A stretch of 64,000 bases of DNA. Source: Flavobacterium micromati (lineage in GTDB: Bacteria; Bacteroidota; Bacteroidia; Flavobacteriales; Flavobacteriaceae). The DNA lies in NCBI RefSeq assembly GCF_900129585.1, contig NZ_FQWF01000012.1:1-64000 (forward strand), read 5' to 3'. Every line of letters starts with the position of its first letter. Position 1 is the stretch's first letter. Below the pieces are notes generated by a model. The model had not been told where the DNA came from, made no database searches, and saw only the letters and a list, made by a program, of their open reading frames with translations. A program made the position numbers and the translations under genes. Positions 1 to 12,450 of the stretch are shown here, piece after piece.

Positions 1-117
1 AGTTGGTACAACTACTTCATCTTCTTTTTTTTATCATTTTAATTTGTTTTATATATATTTACAAAGTACTAACATTTTCAGGCAAAACACTACCGTAGGT
101 TTAGTTCAACAGCGGTT

Positions 118-216
118 TTGCGAGATTGCGAAATAAGTGCAAAATTCAAGTTTATCTTTCGCAAGAAATTTTATCTTAGCAGAAAAATCTCGGTTCCGAA
201 GTTCGCAACCTCGCAA
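118..216. repeat. Imperfect inverted repeat (about 100 bp hairpin element)
   Basis: Two 15-base arms at 118-132 and 202-216 are reverse complements with one mismatch (a G.T wobble in RNA). They enclose an AT-rich loop. The element lies beyond the 3' end of the transposase gene. It could be a small decayed element or a transcript-ending structure. I know no named family for it. Confidence 0.5.
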
Positions 217-256
217 AGCTGCAAACCGTCAGGCTGTGAATTTACCCCACTTTTGC

Positions 257-1862
257 TCAAATTAATTCAATAACTCCTTTCCTATTCGCACAAAACTCGC
301 TTGTAAGCGAGGCGGTTTTTAGAGATAGAAATAATTGTTTGATAATTTTGAACTCGCAGAAGAGCTTAAAAAAGGTCGCTATGATCAAGGCATACCCTTT
401 TGGTGGGTATTTTGCATTCCATTTCTGGATTTTATCAATTAAATCGGGAATTCCCAGAATATTCATCGTGCGTTTGATGTTGTACACGAGCATGATTAAA
501 CTGTGTTCGCCATTTACTTTTTCAAGTCCTATTAAATTGGTGTGATTATAACCCCATTGCCTTTTTATAGTTCCAAAGATATGTTCATTTATCTCTTGTC
601 GTTTGCGATACAATTGTGGGTTTTCCTGATAGCGTTTGTTGTTTTCTTCAACAGCTTGGGCGTACTCGCTGCGGTCTATTTCCCTGCCAGCAGGTCTTGC
701 TGTACAAAGATGTTTCGCGGGACATTCCTTGCAAGAGGAAGTTCGATATTTCTTGAATTGATAACCGCTTTGTTCTGTTCGCCCACTTTTTTTATGCCAT
801 CTTCCTGTAGTTTTTAAAGTTGCTCCTTGGGGACAGGTGTAAGTGTCATCGGCTTTATTGTAGATAAATTTGGCTACTAAATAATCTGGTTGCGTGACAC
901 TTTCTTTACTTGTGCCTGGCGTAGGATGGGCTACAATGGTGGTGATGTTATGCTTTATGCATTGGGCAATTTCCCTTCCATTGTGGTAGCCTTTATCTAC
1001 CAAAGCGGTGAAAGTATCTACGCCCAAGTTTTCTTTTGCTTCCAAAGCGATAGCTCCTAAGGCGTTAAGATCATTGCGATTTATGGTGTGGGTAGCTACA
1101 ATTAAATTGTGTTTATTATCCACTGCTGCTTGGATATTGTAACTTATCTCAACTACTACTCCTTGAACCAAAAGCGCGCGAGCATCTTCATCGGTGGTAC
1201 TTATCTGAGCAGATCCACTCTCTTCTAGTTTTTTTTGCAGAAGTTCATAGTCTAGTCTATTCTTCTTTAAGCGTTCTATTTTCTCTTGAATATTAGTTAC
1301 TTTGACACTGCTATCTTTTAAGTCATTTTGAGCTAGTTGGGTTAGATATTCTTCTGTCTTTTCTTCAATGCAAGCCAAGTGTTTGTCAATTTTCTTTTGA
1401 TTAAAATTAGCTTTCTTACTGTTATGCGCTCTACTTTTTGTACCGTCAATTGCGATGGTTACCAGCAAGCAGGTCGGCATCTTTCAAAAAAGAAACAAAG
1501 AGTTTGAATAGTTTTCTAAGCCCAGCTGGGTTTTGTTTTCTAAAATCAGAAATACTATGATAATTTGGGCAAATAGCCTCTAAAAGCCATTGTAATTCGA
1601 TATTGCGAAAGCACTCTTTTTCTAACTTTCTAGAACTTCTAAGGCCATTTAAGTAACCGTATAAATAGATTTTAAGAAACAACTTAGTGTCAAAACTGGG
1701 GCGCCCTTCGGATTTTATAGTTTGTACCGTAAAACCAAGTGCTTCAAGTGAGATATGCTCTACAAAAGCTTCAATAAAACGTATGGGATTATCTGAGGCG
1801 ATTTTATCTTCTAAACTACTTATTTGTAACTGTTGACGCGATATTCCGGAGATGTGTTGCAT
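257..1862 (-). pseudogene. IS1182-family DDE transposase, interrupted by a frameshift
   Basis: Read on the minus strand, 1862-1446 encodes the N-terminal part (138 residues, starting MQHISGISRQ, DUF772-like). 1480-257 encodes the catalytic part. Together they make a protein of about 530 residues, normal for IS1182-family transposases. The DDE residues are visible in the second part: Asp in AIDGTK, Asp in LVDKGYHNG and Glu in NEHIFGTIKRQWG, with a Cys-rich segment (CKECPAKHLC) between the last two. The frames change between 1446 and 1480, just before the first catalytic Asp. No slippery heptamer is visible there and IS1182 elements are not known for programmed frameshifting, so I read this as an inactivating indel. 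A sequencing error remains possible. The last ~35 residues look low-complexity and may extend past the original stop. Confidence 0.8.
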
Positions 1863-1954
1863 CTTTAAATGTACAAATTTTCTCGCTTATATCCAAAATA
1901 AAATACTATATTTGATGCAAATAAAACGGAAGTTTTTTCACGGACTGCCGTTAT
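257..1954 (-). mobile_element. IS1182-like insertion sequence, copy 1
   Basis: The element contains one transposase gene in two frames (257-1862). Its transposase-proximal end is set by comparison with the truncated second copy: the two sequences agree up to the motif ttttttcacrgactgccgtt, ending at about 1954 and 5498, then diverge. The other end is not defined. A weak partial match to that end lies near 229-246, just past the transposase stop, so the element may begin there. I could not establish clean terminal inverted repeats or a target-site duplication by eye. Confidence 0.65.
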
Positions 1955-2001
1955 GGGCAATGCTAACAGACACCGCTAATAGACGCCGTTGCTAGACACT
2001 T

Positions 2002-4788
2002 ATGAAGACAGAAAAGAAATACATTCAGACAATAATTTCAGCTAATAATGACAATAGTTTAGCAGTTTTCGTTGGTGCGGGAATCTCAAAAAGTTCAGAA
2101 ACAAAAACAGTAAAGCTTCCTTCATGGAATGACTTAATTGAAGATTTAAAGGATGAATTAGAAATAGAAAATGAAAGTGATTTTTTAAAGATTGCTCAAC
2201 TTTATTATTTAGCCTTTGGTGAATTTATTTACTACAAAAAACTTAAGGAATATTTTCCTGAACACATTTCTCCATCTATAATTCACAAGCTAATTTTTGA
2301 TATTAATCCCCATGTTATTATTACTACAAATTGGGACAGTCTATTAGAGAAAACAATACAAGAGAATGCCTATATATATGATGTGGTTTGCTCAGACATT
2401 GATTTGGTCAAATCATCCTTACAGAATAAACTAATAAAGATGCATGGTGATTTTAAAAATCATAATATTGTTTTTAAAGAAGATGATTATTTAAAATACA
2501 ACCTCTTATTCCCTTTAGTTGAAAATTATGTAAAAAGCATTCTTTCTACACATACTGTTGTGTTTATTGGTTATTCATATAATGACACCAATTTAAAACA
2601 GATTGTAAAGTGGATTCAAAATTATTCTAACGTGAAACCGCCAATGTATTTGATTACATACAAACGCAATGACAATCAAATTAAATACATGGAAAATCAT
2701 GGAATTACAACAATAGTTCTCGAGGAAACCGATAACGATAAATTTCAAATAAAAGACGACTTAGACGATTATTCAAAAAAAATGCTCACGTTTCTGTCAA
2801 GAATATTGACAAAGGATGAAGTAAATGTAGCTAACAACTCAATGGAAACGATTGATTTCATTCTAAACAAGCTTGAAACCTTAAACGAACTAGATGGTAT
2901 TCTTATTGAACAAATACAAATTGCTTTAACAAATTGCGGCTACATATACGATGATGATTCTACGCCTATCTTAGAATTTTATGATGAACTTTTGACTTAC
3001 GATATAAACAAACCAATTAGAGCAATACACGAAAAATTTAGAGAAATTCTATACGGAATTGAGCATGATACAAAGAAACCTTTGCCTAAGATTCTTAAAA
3101 TTTTTGAGATTTTACGTAAAGCCAGAATCAAGGGAATAGTTATTTCAAAAAATGATATTAAAAACCATGATAAAGAATATATTGCATTTCAAGATTATTT
3201 AAAAATTGAAGATTTAGATGAGAAGAATGTTTACTTTGACTTTGACTTTAAAGTTTTAACAAAGCAGGATTCTGAATTGGATGAAATATTTGAGTTAGCC
3301 CTTAAATTAAAAAATTTAGATAAGATAGAAGAAGCGTTTGCACAAATTGAAGACACAATAAAAATTTGCTTAAAGCAAAGAAACTACACGAAGTTATTCA
3401 TTGCAATGTTTAACCGAAATATTTTGTTACATAAATTAAAATTCAGCTTTAGTCATTTTGAAACACAAGACAAATACAAAAACATTAAAGAATATAATTT
3501 AAAAGAACGTTATCAAAATCTGACTAAGGATTTAAAGTTTGCATTAGAACCTATTTATGAGTTTGTTGATTTTTCTTTCCTTTACAGATACGCCTATAGG
3601 GTCTCTAATGATTTAAGAAAAAAGGAAGAAGACAAAAGAACAATAAAATCAGGTGGCATGATTTTCAACTCCGATGTTTATCAATTTTCATCCAAGCATG
3701 AAAACCTTGTGAATTTTGTTTTGAAAAACAAAATAATGATTGAGGATTATAACGAATATAAGTCAATCAATAAATCGTTTGTAAGCATTGCCTTAATCAG
3801 ACAAATCCAAAAGGAAACTGTTACTCTTTCAAAAACAGAATTGTATTCCTGCATTAAATACATTGACTATAAGGATTTGCGTATACTGTTTGACGAATAT
3901 TACGACAAGAACTCGACAAACAAAGGGAAATTAGAACTTGATGAAGATTTAAAAGGTTGGCTAATCAATACAGTATTTGAAAATATAACAAAGCAATATT
4001 TATCATCAGAAAAACCTTTCAACGGTTTTGAACATTATATTAAAAATACAATGTTCATTCTTTCACTTTTAAAGAACAATAAAGAAGACGCAAAGCGTAT
4101 TTTTGCAATAATTAGTAAAATATTAAAAGACGGGAAAAATACGCTAACCATATTTGAATCTATTAATCTGTTTATGGGGATTCAGCATAATCTTTATAAG
4201 CTGAAAATAGACAAGGAATTTTTGATAAATATGATTGAAACTTTTATAAACAAATTAGTGTATAAAAAATTTACTGGACACGAATACATTGCCTTAACAC
4301 GCAACGAACTTTCCAATCTATATGGTTACGCTAGTTTAGGAAAAGTGGTGTTTCAAAATGAAGTAATAATTGACAAGTTACTTACTGAAGTAAAAACATA
4401 TGCAATTTCAGAAAAAATACAAATCACACAAAATTTCATCTTAAACATTTACGAAATTTCAACTCCAAAAATCAAAGATAAAATCAAGAGGTTTACATTA
4501 TCCATTAACATTAATGATGAAGAAGAAATTGAAAAGCGAATCATCTTTGAAAATACTTTAGTAATCTTTGACTTTAAAGAGTTATCAACGGAATTGGCAC
4601 AATTGACAGAAACGTATTTAGAACAATATAAAGATGGAAGTAGATTCTCTACAATTTTGTATATGTTAGACAGCCAAATTGACTATTTGATTGCAAATAA
4701 AAGTGTAACGGGCTTAGAAAAAATTTCTGAAATATTAAAGACCGCTATAAAAAGACATAAAGAAAGTAATAGAATGGCAATATTTTAA
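2002..4788 (+). CDS. SIR2-domain protein, candidate stand-alone anti-phage NADase (DSR-like)
   Basis: 928 residues. Residues 18-205 form a SIR2-like NAD-binding domain: GAGIS (25-29), TTNWD (108-112), KMHGD (146-150) and GYSYND (190-195). Asn110 and His148 sit where the catalytic Asn and His lie in SIR2 defence proteins. The remaining ~650 residues are charged and probably helical, with no membrane segment and no domain I recognise. That layout (N-terminal SIR2, long helical sensor, one gene) matches the DSR1/DSR2 class of abortive-infection proteins that deplete NAD after phage sensing; the function is inferred from family layout. The ATG at 2002 lies 48 bases after the IS end and has no clear Shine-Dalgarno, as is common in Bacteroidetes. 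No partner gene follows. Its position between two IS1182-like copies suggests horizontal acquisition. Confidence 0.82.
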   Translation: MKTEKKYIQTIISANNDNSLAVFVGAGISKSSETKTVKLPSWNDLIEDLKDELEIENESDFLKIAQLYYLAFGEFIYYKKLKEYFPEHISPSIIHKLIFDINPHVIITTNWDSLLEKTIQENAYIYDVVCSDIDLVKSSLQNKLIKMHGDFKNHNIVFKEDDYLKYNLLFPLVENYVKSILSTHTVVFIGYSYNDTNLKQIVKWIQNYSNVKPPMYLITYKRNDNQIKYMENHGITTIVLEETDNDKFQIKDDLDDYSKKMLTFLSRILTKDEVNVANNSMETIDFILNKLETLNELDGILIEQIQIALTNCGYIYDDDSTPILEFYDELLTYDINKPIRAIHEKFREILYGIEHDTKKPLPKILKIFEILRKARIKGIVISKNDIKNHDKEYIAFQDYLKIEDLDEKNVYFDFDFKVLTKQDSELDEIFELALKLKNLDKIEEAFAQIEDTIKICLKQRNYTKLFIAMFNRNILLHKLKFSFSHFETQDKYKNIKEYNLKERYQNLTKDLKFALEPIYEFVDFSFLYRYAYRVSNDLRKKEEDKRTIKSGGMIFNSDVYQFSSKHENLVNFVLKNKIMIEDYNEYKSINKSFVSIALIRQIQKETVTLSKTELYSCIKYIDYKDLRILFDEYYDKNSTNKGKLELDEDLKGWLINTVFENITKQYLSSEKPFNGFEHYIKNTMFILSLLKNNKEDAKRIFAIISKILKDGKNTLTIFESINLFMGIQHNLYKLKIDKEFLINMIETFINKLVYKKFTGHEYIALTRNELSNLYGYASLGKVVFQNEVIIDKLLTEVKTYAISEKIQITQNFILNIYEISTPKIKDKIKRFTLSININDEEEIEKRIIFENTLVIFDFKELSTELAQLTETYLEQYKDGSRFSTILYMLDSQIDYLIANKSVTGLEKISEILKTAIKRHKESNRMAIF

Positions 4789-4802
4789 AGAAAAAGAAGC
4801 AC

Positions 4803-4955
4803 ATGCCTATAACAGCTAGGATTTCGTTGCGTTCGCCGCGGCCAACGAACACCCGAGCGACAGCGAACGGACGAAGTAATGAACCCGCGGTTGAATCCTC
4901 CGCAGCGGACAGGCTGGAACCGATTACAAGCCGTCAACACTATGGAGTTATCGTA
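4803..4955. other. GC-rich, palindrome-dense intergenic segment after the SIR2 gene
   Basis: This stretch is far more GC-rich than its surroundings and is full of complementary short arms (ttcgttg/caacgaa, gttcgc/gcgaac, tccg/cgga). It could end the SIR2 transcript or be a cassette-junction-like sequence. An open frame crosses it, but the composition (Arg/Pro/Ser rich, then Cys/Phe rich) does not look like protein. I see no gene in 4789-5189. Confidence 0.4.
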
Positions 4956-5151
4956 AAGTATATTAATGAATATCAAGAGGATTTAGAGTCCCTTTTTTTT
5001 TGCGGTACAAAAAGGTCGGTTTTTCTCTTGTTTTCCTTTCCCCAAGTTTCGGGATTAGTTACAACTTCCCTTACCCATAAAGTTAACTTATACAAGGACT
5101 TGAGCTGTGGTTATCGCCAAGATACCATCCCGACACTACGGGAGGAGGACC

Positions 5152-5175
5152 AAGCTGGTCAAAACCAGCTTTTCT
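5152..5175. terminator. Hairpin, possible terminator
   Basis: Arms aagctggt (5152-5159) and accagctt (5164-5171) form a perfect 8-bp stem with a 4-base loop, followed by a short T-run on the plus strand. It could stop transcription leaving the SIR2 region. Confidence 0.4.
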
Positions 5176-5217
5176 ATGTAAATTGCCTGTTATGCAGCAA
5201 GGGCATTTGTGTAAAAA

Positions 5218-5498
5218 AATTTAAGAAACAGCTTAGTGTCAAAACTGGGGTGGCCTTCGGATTTTATAGTTTGTATTGCAAAACCAAGTGCTTCGAGTGA
5301 GATGTGCTCTACAAAAGCTTCAATAAAACGTATGGGATTATCTGAGGCGATTTTATCTTGTAAACTACTTATTTGTAACTGTTGACGCGATATTCCAGAT
5401 ATATGTTGCATCTTTAAATGTACAAATTTTCTCGCTTACATCAAAAATACTATATTTGATGCAAATAAAACGGTAGTTTTTTCACAGACTGCCGTTAT
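5218..5498 (-). mobile_element. IS1182-like insertion sequence, truncated copy 2
   Basis: Sequence from about 5218 to 5498 is nearly the same as the transposase N-terminal end and outer flank of copy 1 (about 1672-1954) and lies in the same orientation. The rest of the element is missing. The surviving reading frame (5190-5411) starts MQHISGISRQ, keeps about 66 matching residues and then runs into unrelated sequence. With copy 1 it brackets the SIR2 gene like the arms of a composite transposon, although this copy cannot encode a transposase. Confidence 0.8.
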
Positions 5499-5638
5499 TA
5501 GCAATAAGCGGACGAATTCCGAATCGACAAATAGACAACTTAAAAAACAGACAGATTAAAACAAAATCAATTATCCTAACAGGACTTTGCCTCCTAACAC
5601 TATCAATATTCCTTTCTTCTTATATCACTAAGAAAACA

Positions 5639-5911
5639 ATGAATAATTCTAGAACAGAAGAGTACGCAATTGTTGACGTCATCCAAAGTGGTAAAAGAAA
5701 TTATATTCGTGTGACAAAAGGTACTGAACCAGCAACAGAAAATGAGTGGAAAAAGGAAAAGACCGACGATCGTGAAGATTTTACGCCCGTAATTAAAGTT
5801 TTAAATCAGCTTAACGAACAAGGTTTTGCCTACACTACTATAGGTGGCGGAACAATATTAATGTATGGTGAGCCAAGACATACTTTTATGTTAGTAAAAA
5901 AAATAAAATAA
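5639..5911 (+). CDS. Small exported protein of unknown function, apparently missing its 5' end
   Basis: 90 residues from the first ATG (MNNSRTEEYAIVDVIQ...), ending with a short basic tail. I recognise no family. The same frame stays open upstream and encodes a basic stretch plus a hydrophobic segment (QIKTKSIILTGLCLLTLSIF at 5552-5611), which looks like a signal peptide or signal anchor joined directly to the annotated Met. No ATG, GTG or TTG lies in that upstream frame before the IS copy 2 end at 5498. The gene was therefore probably cut at its 5' end by the IS event, or it uses an unusual start. The product would be exported or membrane-anchored if the upstream part is translated, and otherwise cytosolic and perhaps non-functional. 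Confidence 0.5.
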   Translation: MNNSRTEEYAIVDVIQSGKRNYIRVTKGTEPATENEWKKEKTDDREDFTPVIKVLNQLNEQGFAYTTIGGGTILMYGEPRHTFMLVKKIK

Positions 5912-6237: not shown

Positions 6238-6350
6238 TAAATGATATATGTTACATCCTAAAATCTACAAACTTTCTTGGTTTTGTACGTAATAATTTGG
6301 CTATATTTCTAAGAAATAAAACTAAGGTTTTTTCACAGACTGCCTTTAGC
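6238..6350. mobile_element. Decayed IS1182-like end, copy 3
   Basis: This stretch aligns by eye with the transposase start region and outer flank of copies 1 and 2: the start-codon region, the following AT-rich flank and the same ttttttcacagactgcc motif. The codon after the old ATG is now a stop. No transposase coding remains. The rest of 5912-6513 holds nothing I can identify. Confidence 0.55.
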
Positions 6351-6513
6351 AACAAGCAGAGTGAAACAAACATTATAACTAATAACAATCCTATTTTTGA
6401 CTTTTACAACATTTTATAAAAGTCAAAATAAATTGACTGAATTTTTCATTTAAGACATTGAATTTAAACTGATCTCCGCAAATGTCCATTAAAAAACTTG
6501 ATTGCTCTATGAT

Positions 6514-6670: not shown

Positions 6671-6850
6671 ATCTGATAAATCAAGAATAAAGTGTTAGAA
6701 AACAATCAACAATTGTTAGTGAAACAGTGTGTTTTTTCAAAATCAAAATCTCGAATTGTTGATAACTATTAGTTTTTTGCAACAGCCTGAATATTCACAT
6801 TTTTTTAAAAGTTATACTTTTGTTTTATCATGCCCCAAAAAATTATCGCA

Positions 6851-9800
6851 ATGAGTATTTTTAAAAATAAAAAAAATTGGAAAAAAGTAATCGCAATTTT
6901 TATCGGAATTCCAATACTATTTCTAGCCATAATAACATCGGTCATTACTCTTAAAAAAGATGGCATTGTTCAAGAATTACTAGCAAATACTAACAAAGAT
7001 TTTAAGGGAAAAATTGAATTCTCAGGAACAGAAATTTCGCCTTTTGAAAACTTTCCATATATTTCAATTGATCTAAAAAATTTTCAGGTTTTTGAATCCA
7101 AAGAACCTACCGAAAAAGCTATTATTAACCTTCAAGATGTTTATATAGGTTTTGATTTATGGACCATAATTAGCGGCAAATTTGATATTAAAACCATAAA
7201 ATTAGCTAATGGTAAAATCAATATTATACAGTATAAAGACAATACATTTAATTTAGTAAAAGCTTTTGAACCGGTAAATGAAGTTGTTGATTTAGAAGAA
7301 GAATTTCATATAGATTTACAAAAAATCAAAATCAAAAACGTAGATATTCTAAAAACCAATTTAGTCGATACATTAACATTAGAAGCGTTTATTGATAAAG
7401 CCGAAACTTATTTCAAAAAAGATCAGACACAAATAAAAATGCGCTTAGACGCTGCTTTTGTGTTCAACATCATTAAAGATAAAGACACCACTTTTGTTAA
7501 AAACAAACATTTTGAGTTAGCAACCGACTTTTCATTTCACAAAAAAACAAACATTTTAAAATTTGAACCTTCAACAGTAAAATTAGAAAATGGGCTTTTT
7601 GGTATGCACGGAAGCATTGATATTGACGATGAATTTAATATGAATTTAGACTTTACGGGTAAAAAACCTAATTTTGATTTGTTAATTGCTTTTGCTCCAG
7701 AAGACTTGATTCCAACTTTGCAAAAATACGACAATCAAGGTGAAATCTTTTTCTTAGCCACTATTAAAGGGAAATCGTCTAACGGAAATTTACCGGCTGT
7801 CGAGGCAAAATTTGGTTGTAAAAACGGCTTTTTTGACAATACCATCACCCACAAAAAACTGGACGGATTGGCTTTTAATGCCTATTTTACAAATGGTGCC
7901 AAAAGAAATTTAGAAACTAGTGCTTTTTTTTTAAACGATTTTACTGCAAAACCAGAAGCAGGTAGGTTTAAAGGAAATTTAAAAGTAATAAACTTTGCTT
8001 CTCCAGAGATAGATTTGAAATTAGATTCTGATTTTGACTTAGAATTTATTTCTAAATTTTTAAATTTAAATGACTTGTCCAATTTAACAGGAAATGTGCA
8101 ATTAAGTATGAATTTTCATGATATTATAGATTTATCTCAACCCGAAAAGAGTTTGGAAAAATTCAATCAATCCTATTTTTCAGAATTATTAATTACTAAT
8201 TTAAACTTTAAATCAGACAGTTATCATTTGCCCGTAAAAAATGTAAACTTAAAGGCAACCATGGATGGCAATAATTTTAAAATGGAGTATTGTCGTTTGC
8301 AACTTGGAAAATCAAACTTAGAAGTAAGTGGAAAAATTAATAATGTTCCTGCAATAATTCATCAAACAAACGGCGAAGTACTCTCTGAAATACACATTAA
8401 ATCAAAATTATTAGATTTCAAAGAATTAACCACTTTTGATACTATAAAACAAAAACCTTTTGATGAAAAAGTTCGAAATTTAAAATTAGACTTAGCATTT
8501 AACGGCGCAGCAAATACTTTTTTACAGTCAAATTCGTTGCCAATAGGCAGTTATTTTATTCAAGATTTTTATGCCAAATTAGAAAATTATCCACATGCAT
8601 TTCACGATTTTAATTGTGTTATAAAAATTGCAGAAAACGAAATTGCCGTCTCTAAATTTGATGGTAAAATTGATGAAACCGATTTTCATTTTGACGGAAA
8701 AATAATAAATTACAATCTGTGGTTGGCCGAAAAAAAAATGGGAGATACTCAATTGGAGTTTGATTTAGTTTCTAACGAAATTCATTTTAAAGATTTATTT
8801 TCTTATAAAGGGAAAAATTTTGTTCCAGAAGAGTACAGAAATGAAGACATAAAGCAATTAAAAATGCACGGAAGAGTAGCGCTACATTACAAAGATTCAC
8901 TACAATCTACCGATTTTTATTTAGACGAATTTAAAGGGAAACTAAAAGTACATCCCATAAATTTTGAACAATTTAAAGGAAATATTCATGCCGAAAATAA
9001 TATATTACAACTAAATAAAATTTCAGGAAAAATTGGTAAAAGTAACTTTTTATTGAGCGGAAAATATCACCTAAAAAACAACGAATCTTACAAAACAAAC
9101 GGTGATTATATCAACTTTCAGTCAAGTTATTTAGATTTTGACGAATTGATTAGTTATCAAGAAACACCTACAAGTTCAACAAAAAAAATAGATCATGACA
9201 AGGTGTTTAACTTATTTGAAGCTCCGTTTAAAAATATGACTATAGAAGCTGTTATTAGTCATTTAAATTACCATAAATATTTAATTAAATCTTTGCATGC
9301 CAAGGTGCGATTAAAAGAAAACCATTTTGTGTATTTTGATGATTGTCACTTTAATGCAGCTGGAGGTTTGGTGAACGTCAAAGGATATTTAAACGGTTCC
9401 GACCCTAAGAATATTTATTTGAATCCCGATTTAAAAATTCAGAAAGTAAATCTAGATCAAGTGTTGTTTAAGTTTGATAATTTTGGACAAGATAAAATGG
9501 TTTCTGAAAATTTACACGGTATTTTTAGCGGAACAATCAAAGGAAAAATTTTATTACATACCGATTTAACGCCAAGAATTGACGAGTCACATTTACAAAT
9601 GGATGTTGTTATAGAAAACGGAAGATTAGATAATTTTGGTCCTATGCAAGCTTTGGCAGATTTCTTTAAAAATAAAAATTTATCTAAAATTTTGTTTGAT
9701 AAACTGGAAAATCGATTGCAATTAGAAAATGGTAAGTTAATTTTGCCTAATATGGTTGTTAATTCTTCTCTTGGTTTTATTGAACTTTCTGGAAAACAAG

Positions 9801-10060
9801 ACATGAAATTGAATATGGAATATTATTTACGAATTCCATTAAAATTGGTAACAAATGTAGCGTTTCAAAAACTTTTTGGTAAAAAACCAGAAGAAGTTGA
9901 CCCTAATCAAGAAGATGAAATTATATCTAAAGATCCCAATAAGAAAATAAATTACATGAATTTAAAGATTGCAGGAACACCTGATGACTTTAAAATTTCA
10001 ATGGAAAAAAACAAAGAACTTAAAAAAGGAAAAGGTTTTAAAAAGAAGGAAACTTTTTAG
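6851..10060 (+). CDS. AsmA-family inner-membrane-anchored envelope protein
   Basis: About 1069 residues from the ATG at 6851; an in-frame ATG at 6830 would add seven. I prefer 6851 because a good -7 motif (TACTTTTG, 6815-6822) would place the transcript start at about 6829. The N-terminus has a basic patch and one membrane segment (WKKVIAIFIGIPILFLAIIT). The rest is a very long, mostly beta-strand region with recurrent 'K-I-x-G' type repeats, typical of AsmA/TamB-like proteins that span the periplasm and are thought to move lipids to, or support assembly of, the outer membrane. Family length is usually 800-1100 in Bacteroidetes. The C-terminus is Lys-rich. It stands alone between two copies of a structured repeat. 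The exact substrate is unknown. Confidence 0.85.
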   Translation: MSIFKNKKNWKKVIAIFIGIPILFLAIITSVITLKKDGIVQELLANTNKDFKGKIEFSGTEISPFENFPYISIDLKNFQVFESKEPTEKAIINLQDVYIGFDLWTIISGKFDIKTIKLANGKINIIQYKDNTFNLVKAFEPVNEVVDLEEEFHIDLQKIKIKNVDILKTNLVDTLTLEAFIDKAETYFKKDQTQIKMRLDAAFVFNIIKDKDTTFVKNKHFELATDFSFHKKTNILKFEPSTVKLENGLFGMHGSIDIDDEFNMNLDFTGKKPNFDLLIAFAPEDLIPTLQKYDNQGEIFFLATIKGKSSNGNLPAVEAKFGCKNGFFDNTITHKKLDGLAFNAYFTNGAKRNLETSAFFLNDFTAKPEAGRFKGNLKVINFASPEIDLKLDSDFDLEFISKFLNLNDLSNLTGNVQLSMNFHDIIDLSQPEKSLEKFNQSYFSELLITNLNFKSDSYHLPVKNVNLKATMDGNNFKMEYCRLQLGKSNLEVSGKINNVPAIIHQTNGEVLSEIHIKSKLLDFKELTTFDTIKQKPFDEKVRNLKLDLAFNGAANTFLQSNSLPIGSYFIQDFYAKLENYPHAFHDFNCVIKIAENEIAVSKFDGKIDETDFHFDGKIINYNLWLAEKKMGDTQLEFDLVSNEIHFKDLFSYKGKNFVPEEYRNEDIKQLKMHGRVALHYKDSLQSTDFYLDEFKGKLKVHPINFEQFKGNIHAENNILQLNKISGKIGKSNFLLSGKYHLKNNESYKTNGDYINFQSSYLDFDELISYQETPTSSTKKIDHDKVFNLFEAPFKNMTIEAVISHLNYHKYLIKSLHAKVRLKENHFVYFDDCHFNAAGGLVNVKGYLNGSDPKNIYLNPDLKIQKVNLDQVLFKFDNFGQDKMVSENLHGIFSGTIKGKILLHTDLTPRIDESHLQMDVVIENGRLDNFGPMQALADFFKNKNLSKILFDKLENRLQLENGKLILPNMVVNSSLGFIELSGKQDMKLNMEYYLRIPLKLVTNVAFQKLFGKKPEEVDPNQEDEIISKDPNKKINYMNLKIAGTPDDFKISMEKNKELKKGKGFKKKETF

Positions 10061-10198
10061 TTTGAAGATATAGAAATCAGCTAAGAATAACTCGCTTCCA
10101 AATATTAACATAAAAAGCAGTGAAATTTGTTTAGGTACAATGGCTTTTGAAAATCAAAACACACACCCTCAGCTCTACGAAGTTTAACTGCGGCTCTT

Positions 10199-10343
10199 CG
10201 CTGGTCTCTGACTCGAAGCCTTTTCTCTTCTAATCAAAATAATACCTCCTAGTTCGCCGCTTATCAATATAAATTGCGTGACTGCGAATTCGGAGACCTT
10301 CGCAGAGCAGCCACGGTTTTTCATATAGACTTAGGGGAGCGGG
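10199..10343. repeat. Nested-hairpin repeat, copy 2
   Basis: Diverged direct copy of 6531-6670. The outer arms are partly decayed (ccgct at 10257-10261 with agcgg at 10338-10342), and the inner arms ctgcgaa (10282-10288) and ttcgcag (10299-10305) are kept. The shared core cacggtttttc follows in both copies. Confidence 0.65.
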
Positions 10344-11331
10344 TATATGTCTTTTAGAGGTGAGGAAGATTTGTCTGCGGGATGAAGTTTTATTCTCTGT
10401 TAAACTTAATATGATTTGGAAATAATCTAGCGGTTTTTTTAAACCGCAATTTTTCATCTTCTATATCCAAATTAATTCTTTGTTATCGTATGTTATATTA
10501 ACATTACAGAAATTTCCACAACTCCAAATTTCACTTATTTCTGAGAAAAATACGGAAGTTTTATTAAGATTATTTTTATTATCAAAATCTCGAATGATCA
10601 GGATCAAGAGGCAAGGAAACCTAATTTTTTACAATACATATCGAGTCGTATCATTAGTGTTTTCCTTCACTTTTGAGCGTTGAAAAGCTTAAACATTCTT
10701 GTGCCAATTTTTGATTCTTATTTTATTAGATTAAAATCTACTAAAATGGCACTTAAAAGTATTAGCTTCTCTTATAGCTTTTAAGGTTACTTTTTAACCC
10801 TTTCTGACTTCAATACATTACATATCAATTGTTTATCTTTTAATAAAGTTTTTTTTTATTCTGAAAAACTAATATATTTACATGATTTTAAATCAAAATT
10901 AGTTTGGATAAGGTTTTTTCTTTGAAAGCAATTAAACAAATTAATATTACCTCTTATTTTAAATTATACCCCGATTTAAATGAGAAAACGGCAAAAATAA
11001 ACAGAAAGCAATTAAACATAAACAATTTGAAGATCGCTTCCAATTGCATTAAACCACTTAATTCTACTGTTTTTGATTGCGGAACCATATTCTATACTGA
11101 TAAAAATAGATATAATTAACAAGCAAGATTATCGACCTAACGGCTTTCAAATTGTAAAGCGGAATTATAGATTGAAACTACTAGACTTTGCAAAAGATTT
11201 TAATTTTTTTTGAAGATTTAAGAAGTTTAAATGAATAAATCGTATTAATAAATCTATCCATTTTGAATATAAATCGAATTAGAATATAGAATTGCTATAA
11301 ATAAATATTTCACCCTTTAAAAATTAAAATC
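10344..11331. other. Long gene-poor stretch
   Basis: About 1 kb without a convincing gene. Short open frames occur at 10480-10683 and 10904-11119, but the second depends on a TTG start and neither resembles a known protein. The stretch is AT-rich and may hold decayed sequence plus the promoter of the metalloprotease gene. I see no tRNA or clear repeat here. Confidence 0.4.
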
Positions 11332-12450
11332 ATGGTAACAACAAAAACATTAAAATCCACAGCATCATTGGATGGAAAAAGTAAAGATGCAAATGTAAAA
11401 ACACCTAACTATTGCTCATTAATCGAATTGCCGGAAAGAGTGTTTGCTCCTTCCGTAAGCATGCACCGAATGGAATTGATCCAGCTGATTATGAAAAAAT
11501 GGCTCAACGGGACTACACTCAAGTATTACTTTTTTAACGGAAGCAGCGACGGATCTCCTGCAACCTGGAAAGGAACAGCATCACAAATTGCCAGCGTAAA
11601 AAAAGGCTTTAATACATGGAAGCAAGAAGGAATCGGCTTGATTTTCGAAGAAACGAACGACCGTAATGAGGCAGAAATACGCATTGGTTTTCTACGTGGC
11701 GATGGAGCTTGGTCGTATGTTGGACGGGATATTATCGATCAAGTTCCTTCACCTAATGAAAGAACGATGAATTTTGGTTGGGATATTTCAACTGATGTGG
11801 ATACTACGGTTCATGAAATAGGTCACACACTTGGCAGTCCACATGAGCACCAGAATCCGCTTGCAGGAATTGTCTGGAATGAAGAAGCAGTTTATACTGC
11901 GCTGGCTCAACCACCAAACCGATGGTCTCGTGAAAAAACATTTCACAATATTATACGAAAATTGCCTATTGGGGAAGTAGAAGGATCAACCCACGACCCG
12001 AATTCGATCATGCATTATCCATTCGGCCCAGGTCTGATCTTGTCGCCTACGGAGTTTAGAAACGGCATTACTCCTGCAGGTGGGCTTTCCGCAAAAGACA
12101 GAGAGTTTATTAAGAAGTTTTATCCACCGATTGCCGCTGCTGACTACATCCGTTTGGAACTAAATCAATCCAAACCGATTAATGTAAAGCCTGGTCAGCA
12201 AAAAAACTTTACGTTCAAACCAACCCGTTCCCGAAAATATACGATTGAAACATTTGGAACTATGGATATGGTGATGGTTATATTTGAGAAAACGACCACA
12301 GGAGAACTATATCTTTCAGGAGATGATGATAGCGGAAAGGATTACAATGCAAAAATTAATATGCGCCTAATAAGGGGCCGGGAATATATAATCCGAGTGC
12401 GGCTATTTTACGCTGGGGAAGAAGGAGCTGGTTCACTTATGATTTTTTAA
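11332..12450 (+). CDS. Astacin/matrixin-like zinc metalloprotease with C-terminal PPC-like domain
   Basis: 372 residues. The extended zinc motif HEIGHTLGSPHEH (161-173) supplies His161, Glu162, His165 and His171, and the Met-turn SIMHYP lies at 225-230; together these place it in the metzincins, nearest the astacin group (M12A). Residues ~271-372 resemble a pre-peptidase C-terminal (PPC) beta domain. There is no recognisable signal peptide or lipobox at the N-terminus (MVTTKTLKSTASLDG...), unusual for this class. It may be delivered by a non-classical route or act in the cytosol. Base composition looks less AT-rich than the neighbours, which hints at transfer. It is monocistronic, followed by a good terminator. 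The family and active site are clear; the substrate is not. Confidence 0.85.
   Translation: MVTTKTLKSTASLDGKSKDANVKTPNYCSLIELPERVFAPSVSMHRMELIQLIMKKWLNGTTLKYYFFNGSSDGSPATWKGTASQIASVKKGFNTWKQEGIGLIFEETNDRNEAEIRIGFLRGDGAWSYVGRDIIDQVPSPNERTMNFGWDISTDVDTTVHEIGHTLGSPHEHQNPLAGIVWNEEAVYTALAQPPNRWSREKTFHNIIRKLPIGEVEGSTHDPNSIMHYPFGPGLILSPTEFRNGITPAGGLSAKDREFIKKFYPPIAAADYIRLELNQSKPINVKPGQQKNFTFKPTRSRKYTIETFGTMDMVMVIFEKTTTGELYLSGDDDSGKDYNAKINMRLIRGREYIIRVRLFYAGEEGAGSLMIF

Follow-up and report, generated by a model that had tools for sequence, protein, structure and literature searches.

The DSR2 protein of Bacillus subtilis has been described as a defence protein that is activated by a phage tail tube protein and hydrolyses NAD (PMC11087589). 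Defence genes have been met in integrons before (cited in PMC12444791), so that a defence cassette is in itself no novelty. The extra domain of the integron integrase IntI is presented as necessary for integron recombination (PMC9668308, PMC8138268) and as the mark separating IntI from other integrases (PMC9024848), while a subgroup of integron-like tyrosine recombinases has been outlined in which this insertion is not fully conserved, insertion-less relatives of IntI being on record (PMC8138268). For Bacteroidota, the account of IntegronFinder 2.0 names one complete integron, that of Salinibacter ruber. Insertion sequences (IS) have been connected with such sites as well: the IS1111 group includes elements directed to one end of attC (PMC11187229), and IS1272, a member of the IS1182 family, is reported to target inverted-repeat structures without producing target duplications, other IS1182 members being said to target palindromes (PMC5678879).

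Here, we analysed the first 64 kb of contig C34 of the Flavobacterium micromati genome (3.69 Mb in 40 contigs); this stretch is called the window below. The original prediction for this DNA had placed a 928-residue SIR2 protein between a frame-broken full IS1182 copy and a truncated copy in the same orientation, an arrangement with which the open reading frames (ORFs), Pfam and IS matches agree (Table 1). Our analysis makes it quite likely that the window encodes a SIR2 NADase of the DSR2 type that serves abortive phage defence and is borne as a single-gene integron cassette, that a recombinase lacking the IntI-specific domain most likely shuffles such cassettes, and that an IS1182-family element later split the sites flanking this one. 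Three further features, which the original prediction does not mention, are described here: an attC-like arm (96-227), complementary boxes at 1950 and 4804, and a cassette array in another part of the genome.

Table 1. Features around the SIR2 gene, in window coordinates.
Feature	Position	Strand	Remarks
attC-like site of the preceding cassette, 5' box through right stem arm	96..227	+	Long palindrome; its 3' box is cut off by the IS and picks up again at 1950
IS1182-family element, both ends present, transposase frame-broken	228..1949	-	Ends GTCAGGCTGTGAA / TTCACGGACTGCC
Head box R' of the probable cassette, GTTATGGGCA	1950..1959	+	9/10 pairing with 4804-4813
SIR2 / DSR2-like gene, 928 aa	2002..4788	+	
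SIR2 NADase domain, residues 1-272	2002..2817	+	N110 (2329-2331), D112 and H148 (2443-2445) conserved
Helical C-terminal region, DSR2-like, residues 408-916	3223..4749	+	Structural alignment and profile match
Inverse core box R'' of the probable SIR2 cassette, TGCCTATAAC	4804..4813	+	AGC comes next, a feature of many attC-like sites
Repeated structured element between R'' box and IS remnant	4814..5212	no strand	Read by eye
Truncated IS1182-family copy, right end only	5213..5493	-	
Next stretch, R'-like box GTTATTAGC and 90-aa ORF (5639-5911)	5494..5911	+	
Third, degraded IS end	6243..6344	-	Followed by TTT instead of GTT

The SIR2 protein and its likeness to DSR2

The protein carries the motifs GAGIS, TTNWD and KMHGD and matches Pfam SIR2_2 over residues 105-238 (E 1.2e-23). 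N110, D112 and H148 are invariant across the eight aligned sequences of its family (the query and seven relatives, two of the eight being partial). Positions 7-895 of the profile built from these eight members match the DSR2 chain over 29-932 (E 1.7e-44), and N110 and H148 correspond to N133 and H171 of DSR2, at an offset of 23 (residue numbering as given in PMC11087589). The SIR2_2 and profile matches bear out the proposal of a DSR-type defence candidate. The companion claim, that the C-terminal sensor resembles none that could be named, has to be given up: residues 408-916 of an AF2 model align with the C-terminal region of DSR2 (8yln_A) over 462 residues (Z 20.9, rmsd 4.7), and the sensor thus has a known counterpart. 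With the same model, DSR2 accounted for all of the 50 Foldseek matches listed. The model is of moderate quality (pLDDT 67, pTM 0.48), and its whole-chain TM-scores against DSR2 are low (0.26-0.39).

The two proteins thus share an N-terminal SIR2 domain with conserved Asn and His, helical middle and C-terminal regions, a similar format (928 versus 1005 residues) and matches in profile and fold that extend over the entire chain. They differ in that whole-chain structural alignments give an identity of 14-18%, and in that the present gene is cassette-borne, with relatives elsewhere on P4-like satellites. Judged from its sequence, the protein is homologous to DSR2 over its full length and has the conserved catalytic Asn and His, and it likely acts in abortive infection via NAD depletion. 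Whereas homology and catalytic residues can be read directly, we infer the defence function, the NAD depletion and the phage trigger. Once a phage infects the cell, the C-terminal solenoid would act as the sensor by binding a phage component; the SIR2 part would then hydrolyse NAD, leading to abortive infection.

Using an E-value of at most 1e-60, we did not find the protein in any of 395 genomes of the phylum other than its own, and none of 99 other near relatives has a full-length copy. Relatives were found at 50-53% identity in four MAG loci (L001-L004) and at 35-38% in three viral contigs (L008-L010). The latter are P4-like satellites in which the gene lies between the integrase and psu genes in all three cases (families were checked for L008 and L010, and L009 was assigned by ORF layout). 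The int-psu locus of such satellites has been published as a hotspot of anti-phage defence (PMC9122126). In addition, contigs C30 and C31 of G038 (L012, L013) encode shorter SIR2 proteins of 491 and 480 aa which match the N-terminal part of the query only.

Cassette boundaries and the IS1182-family element

In the circular form of an integron cassette, the bases at its head are complementary to the inverse core site in the attC of the same cassette and pair with it. In the window, the R' box at 1950 (GTTATGGGCA) and the R'' box at 4804 (TGCCTATAAC), which begins 15 bases past the SIR2 stop codon, pair at 9 of 10 positions, a value equalled by 8 of 2000 shuffled boxes. A palindrome arm lies to the left of the IS and continues to its right. 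The stem of this attC-like arm (96-227) is of the same kind as that of the 29 chain-defined sites described below, and the arm matches 13 places in its own genome and is matched in 21 of 61 genomes; the left-hand element also has matches on plasmids of Myroides and Chryseobacterium. The site 3' of the SIR2 gene departs from an ordinary attC; there, the R'' box runs into a repeated element and then into the IS remnant, so that the cassette may now be immobile. Scanning the window with an inner-arm palindrome pattern found zero sites, because the IS splits the site. Three short motifs were counted in the window and left unused as evidence: CAACAGCGGTTT (8 matches versus 4.8 expected, reached by 13 of 100 shuffles), ACCGTTATGGGCAA (9 versus 3.6, reached by 1 of 100) and GCCTATAACAGC (5 versus 2.3, reached by 7 of 100). 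The SIR2 gene is probably a single-gene cassette that extends from R' at 1950 to an attC-like site opening with R'' at 4804, and it would travel as such in an integron of the type met in the order Flavobacteriales.

The transposase of the left IS is split over two overlapping minus-strand ORFs (257-1480 and 1446-1862). These pieces match positions 138-487 (215 bits) and 6-138 (96.9 bits) of the NCBIfam IS1182 model (488 positions), each alone scoring below its cut-off of 270 bits. Both the transposase and the terminal inverted repeats (ends GTCAGGCTGTGAA / GTCAGTCTGTGAA) are those of an IS1182-family element. The right copy is 92% identical over 5213-5454 to 1664-1905. After the third IS end, a 1076-aa ORF begins at 6830, for which the NCBIfam search gave no match.

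Read by eye, each of the five left IS ends of this genome comes after the right arm of an attC; AAC closes four of these arms and ACC the fifth. GTT comes next after 11 of the 13 well-kept right ends, a count that leaves out two degraded ends and two false pattern matches; one right end, in contig C33, was missed by the end pattern and read separately. The IS1182-family element targets the attC crossover (AAC^GTT). This accounts for the same-orientation copies around the SIR2 gene as well as for copies around many unrelated genes. Elsewhere, IS-like ends lie at attC arms in loci L029, L035, L095 and L099 (genomes G007, G029 and G031), and one end, in L034, lies off the arm; a transposase piece is found near them only in L095 (G007; 76% over 41 residues), with a distant one in L034. 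Because 13 nt of the IS end were part of the query used to retrieve these loci, they are weak support. Like some IS1111 members, the present element is found at attC, but it has an IS1182-family DDE transposase and terminal inverted repeats. IS1272 belongs to the same family and targets inverted-repeat structures, but it is reported to replace the stem-loop (PMC5678879), whereas here the attC stem is kept to the left of the IS. We found no account of an IS1182 element at attC in the open-licence literature. Insertion of this element at the attC crossover would have later split the sites on both sides of the SIR2 cassette.

The pairing of boundary boxes was examined in 12 IS-bounded stretches of the same genome, six picked after reading and then six others. 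Five of them, all located on the window contig or on C17, pair at 9-10 of 10 positions (equalled by 5 to 17 of 2000 shuffles), and a sixth, at C17:996, pairs weakly at 8 of 10 (229 of 2000 shuffles). Paired boxes were not found in the remaining six, which are the 90-aa stretch at 5494, where we searched for an R'' box matching GTTATTAGC, the C17:6829 stretch, whose start was set one base off in the test, and each of the four stretches of C23. The IS-bounded stretches therefore mix intact and decayed cassettes, the SIR2 cassette being among the intact ones. Contig C23 (L063) differs in this respect from C17, and its stretches may belong to a region of the array that is older and has decayed.

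The neighbourhoods of the MAG relatives show some of the same features. Paired boxes are present in L001 (9/10), but 57 of 2000 shuffles reach as much. In L002, an attC-like site lies directly 3' of the gene; our script did not find its R' box, for which ATTAGCGGT and ACCGCCAAC pair at 7 of 9 positions by eye. An attC-like site directly precedes the gene in L003, and L004 has an R'-like box only.

Stretches similar to the 4814-5212 element recur on C17, on C23 and in the last part of C38; the positions noted are about 18478-18580 in L061, at about 6268-6480, 7540-7730, 9300-9460 and 10698-10910 in L062, and at about 3600-3780, 7325-7530 and 8555-8740 in L063. Elements of this type consist of hairpins followed by a GAGTTATCG-like sequence and a terminator-like stretch, GAGGC..GCCTCTTTTTTT, and lie between R'' and an IS remnant in many stretches. 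They are perhaps a non-autonomous derivative of the IS or a second kind of attC.

Cassette arrays and the adjacent recombinase

Within this genome, attC-like palindromes are densest in contig C38, behind a tyrosine recombinase. The inner-arm pattern, derived from sites first read by eye, detects six of them there, in one shared orientation, and none in shuffled sequence. In 5/5 cases, the closing box R' is the exact 8-nt reverse complement of the next opening box R'', which is a signature of integron cassettes. A chain search demanding exact boxes gave eight links starting from attI, directly after the recombinase; the contig thus holds the recombinase, attI and eight cassettes with exact 9-nt box pairs. 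As the chain searches demand exact matches, the '9 of 9' pairing of boxes in this genome arises by construction; the inner-arm test in C38, the attI pattern search, the covariation and the test of IS-bounded stretches are independent of the chain criterion. The two boxes found at one physical site match at just 3-8 of 9 positions, as expected in an array. Chains of nine links were obtained in G007 and in G079, which belongs to another family of the order, with shuffled controls of at most five links. Loose searches in shuffled sequence produce chains of up to five (C38) or six links (other loci), so we counted only chains of 8-9 links or those starting at attI; in the 8-link chain of L096, only the first four links are trusted.

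Orthologues of the recombinase with at least 60% identity were identified in 12 of 60 other genomes searched, giving 13 loci with our own. In 10 of these 13, the attI box is answered by an 8-9-nt reverse complement that opens the first attC, and the layout of recombinase, attI and cassettes is accordingly present in our genome and in nine further genomes of the same order. The attI pattern alone detects 7 of the 13, the attI of L061, L100 and L105 coming from chain searches or reading. Among the other three loci, L097 (G026) has an unrelated hairpin at this place, and the contigs of L102 and L103 (G030, G003) end early. The other eight of the 21 loci (L106-L113), in which the recombinase has at most 50% identity and several of which are short, gave no chains above control.

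We aligned 29 attC-like sites from six genomes, with lengths of 128-139 bp. In their stems, 91.3% of the cells are paired, compared with 31-44% when the alignment is slid, and 19 of 19 stem pairs have two-sided changes. The covariation score is 0.840 versus 0.06-0.13 for slid alignments; the weakest covariation measure, that of further pair types, is equalled in 12 of 500 shuffles. The attC-like sites conserve a folded structure rather than a sequence. In 38 genomes of the same genus, attC-like DNA is present in 21 and the recombinase in 18, both occurring together in 11 versus 9.9 expected, which is no excess over independence. This lack of association speaks against a working link between the two, and it may reflect many solitary attC-like sites or the loss of recombinases. 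Seemingly solitary attC-like sites were noticed outside the C38 array in contigs C39, C16, C18 and C29 of our genome; these are perhaps cassettes inserted at secondary sites.

The array recombinase resembles XerA-like proteins, IntI4 and XerD. In an alignment, residues 186-245 of IntI4 face 18 residues of the array recombinase, and in 10/10 genomes with the layout the integron-integrase profile hits the recombinase in two pieces with a gap at profile positions of about 178-238, which recurs in other Xer-type matches of the same genomes. The gene is coded in the direction of the cassettes, with attI on its 3' side. It lies on contig C38, and the contig of the SIR2 gene itself is devoid of a recombinase. 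Apart from the IntI-specific domain, the arrays have the integron features for which we tested. As in sedentary chromosomal integrons, there is a recombinase, an attI and a series of tandem cassettes mostly in one orientation, with folded attC-like sites, R' and R'' paired within the cassette, and toxin-antitoxin and defence cassettes. The differences are the recombinase without the IntI-specific domain, its direction, shared with the cassettes, the attI located 3' of the gene, and the length of the attC-like sites. The insertion-less members of the integron-like subgroup, as presented in PMC8138268, are not tied to attI and cassette arrays, and we found no account of integrons without the IntI domain in this order in the open-licence literature. 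A recombinase of the Xer/XerA-IntI kind lacking this domain would most likely capture and shuffle cassettes via folded attC-like palindromes. While the paired cassette boxes, the attC fold, the recombinase-attI-array layout, the IS target, the DSR2 homology and the catalytic residues are derived from the DNA itself, we infer recombination activity and the physical linkage of the SIR2 contig to C38.

Alternative readings and significance

The original prediction had the gene arriving on an IS-bracketed unit, and two same-orientation IS1182 copies do flank it. However, the IS junctions are attC crossovers, each copy sitting at its own one; similar IS ends surround many unrelated genes in C17 and C23; the boundary boxes of the SIR2 gene pair with each other; and the loci of the seven relatives of the SIR2 protein contain no relative of the IS. 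Moreover, the right copy lacks its left part, and no repeat shared by the outer flanks of the two copies was seen by eye. Carriage of the gene to this site by a composite unit of two IS1182 copies is therefore highly improbable. Another possibility concerns the protein, which could be a SIR2 NADase of another defence kind, either similar to ThsA of Thoeris or from a distinct SIR2 family, with an unrelated sensor. The best PADLOC model is indeed ThsA, covering residues 3-257 of 928, and a single-sequence PDB search meets DSR2 over residues 8-298 only. Yet the family profile covers DSR2 up to residue 932, and the best structural match of the C-terminal region other than DSR2 reaches Z 11.1, against 20.9 for DSR2. 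A Pfam search at E up to 1 did not find the SLOG family, which forms the C-terminal domain of ThsA, although a weak domain could escape it. We thus regard a SIR2 protein of another kind as distinctly unlikely and retain a DSR2-type protein.

The arrays, too, could have another origin, as the work of a canonical IntI that was lost later or is located elsewhere, with the adjacent Xer-like recombinase a bystander. This would suit a recombinase devoid of the segment described as needed (PMC9668308, PMC8138268), as well as the co-occurrence of recombinase and attC-like DNA at the expected level. On the other hand, none of the 10 genomes with the layout has an IntI above the cut-off (nor has any of 14 control genomes, in a search run without a positive control), the best integron-integrase match in each of the 10 is the recombinase next to attI, and in genomes from two families some 100-110 bp separate the stop codon of this recombinase from the attI that follows it. 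A bystander role for the recombinase is hence rather unlikely in our opinion, and we favour the adjacent recombinase as the enzyme that handles the cassettes.

Three aspects of this system appear to be new: the variant recombinase with its arrays, a DSR2-type gene in cassette form, and an IS1182 element that seeks out attC. To our knowledge, there is no earlier case of a cassette-borne DSR2. More broadly, we lean towards the existence of a class of Flavobacteriales integrons in which a recombinase without the IntI-specific domain works on folded attC-like sites, with attI 3' of its gene, and which would circulate defence genes such as the DSR2 homologue, while an IS1182 lineage specialised on the attC crossover would lock cassettes in place. 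If so, surveys of integrons defined by IntI would overlook them. Since ten genomes of a single order have a recombinase without the extra domain next to attI and cassettes, the need for this domain becomes directly testable. The arrays point to an overlooked reservoir of cassettes in Bacteroidota, with phage defence, including a DSR2-type gene, among its contents.

Several other cassettes were also read individually. A cassette at 14142-16519 of L061 encodes a type II restriction-modification pair, composed of a C5 methylase and an NgoFVII-like endonuclease. In L062, an IS-bounded cassette whose boxes pair at 10/10 positions encodes an AbiTii-like protein (11204-12124). Toxin-antitoxin cassettes are usual in other large chromosomal integrons. 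L062 contains twice, at 1084-1748 and 10059-10693, a gene pair for a Gp49-like protein and an HTH protein, which we take to be toxin-antitoxin systems, and L063 encodes a PemK/MazF-like toxin at 8215-8538.
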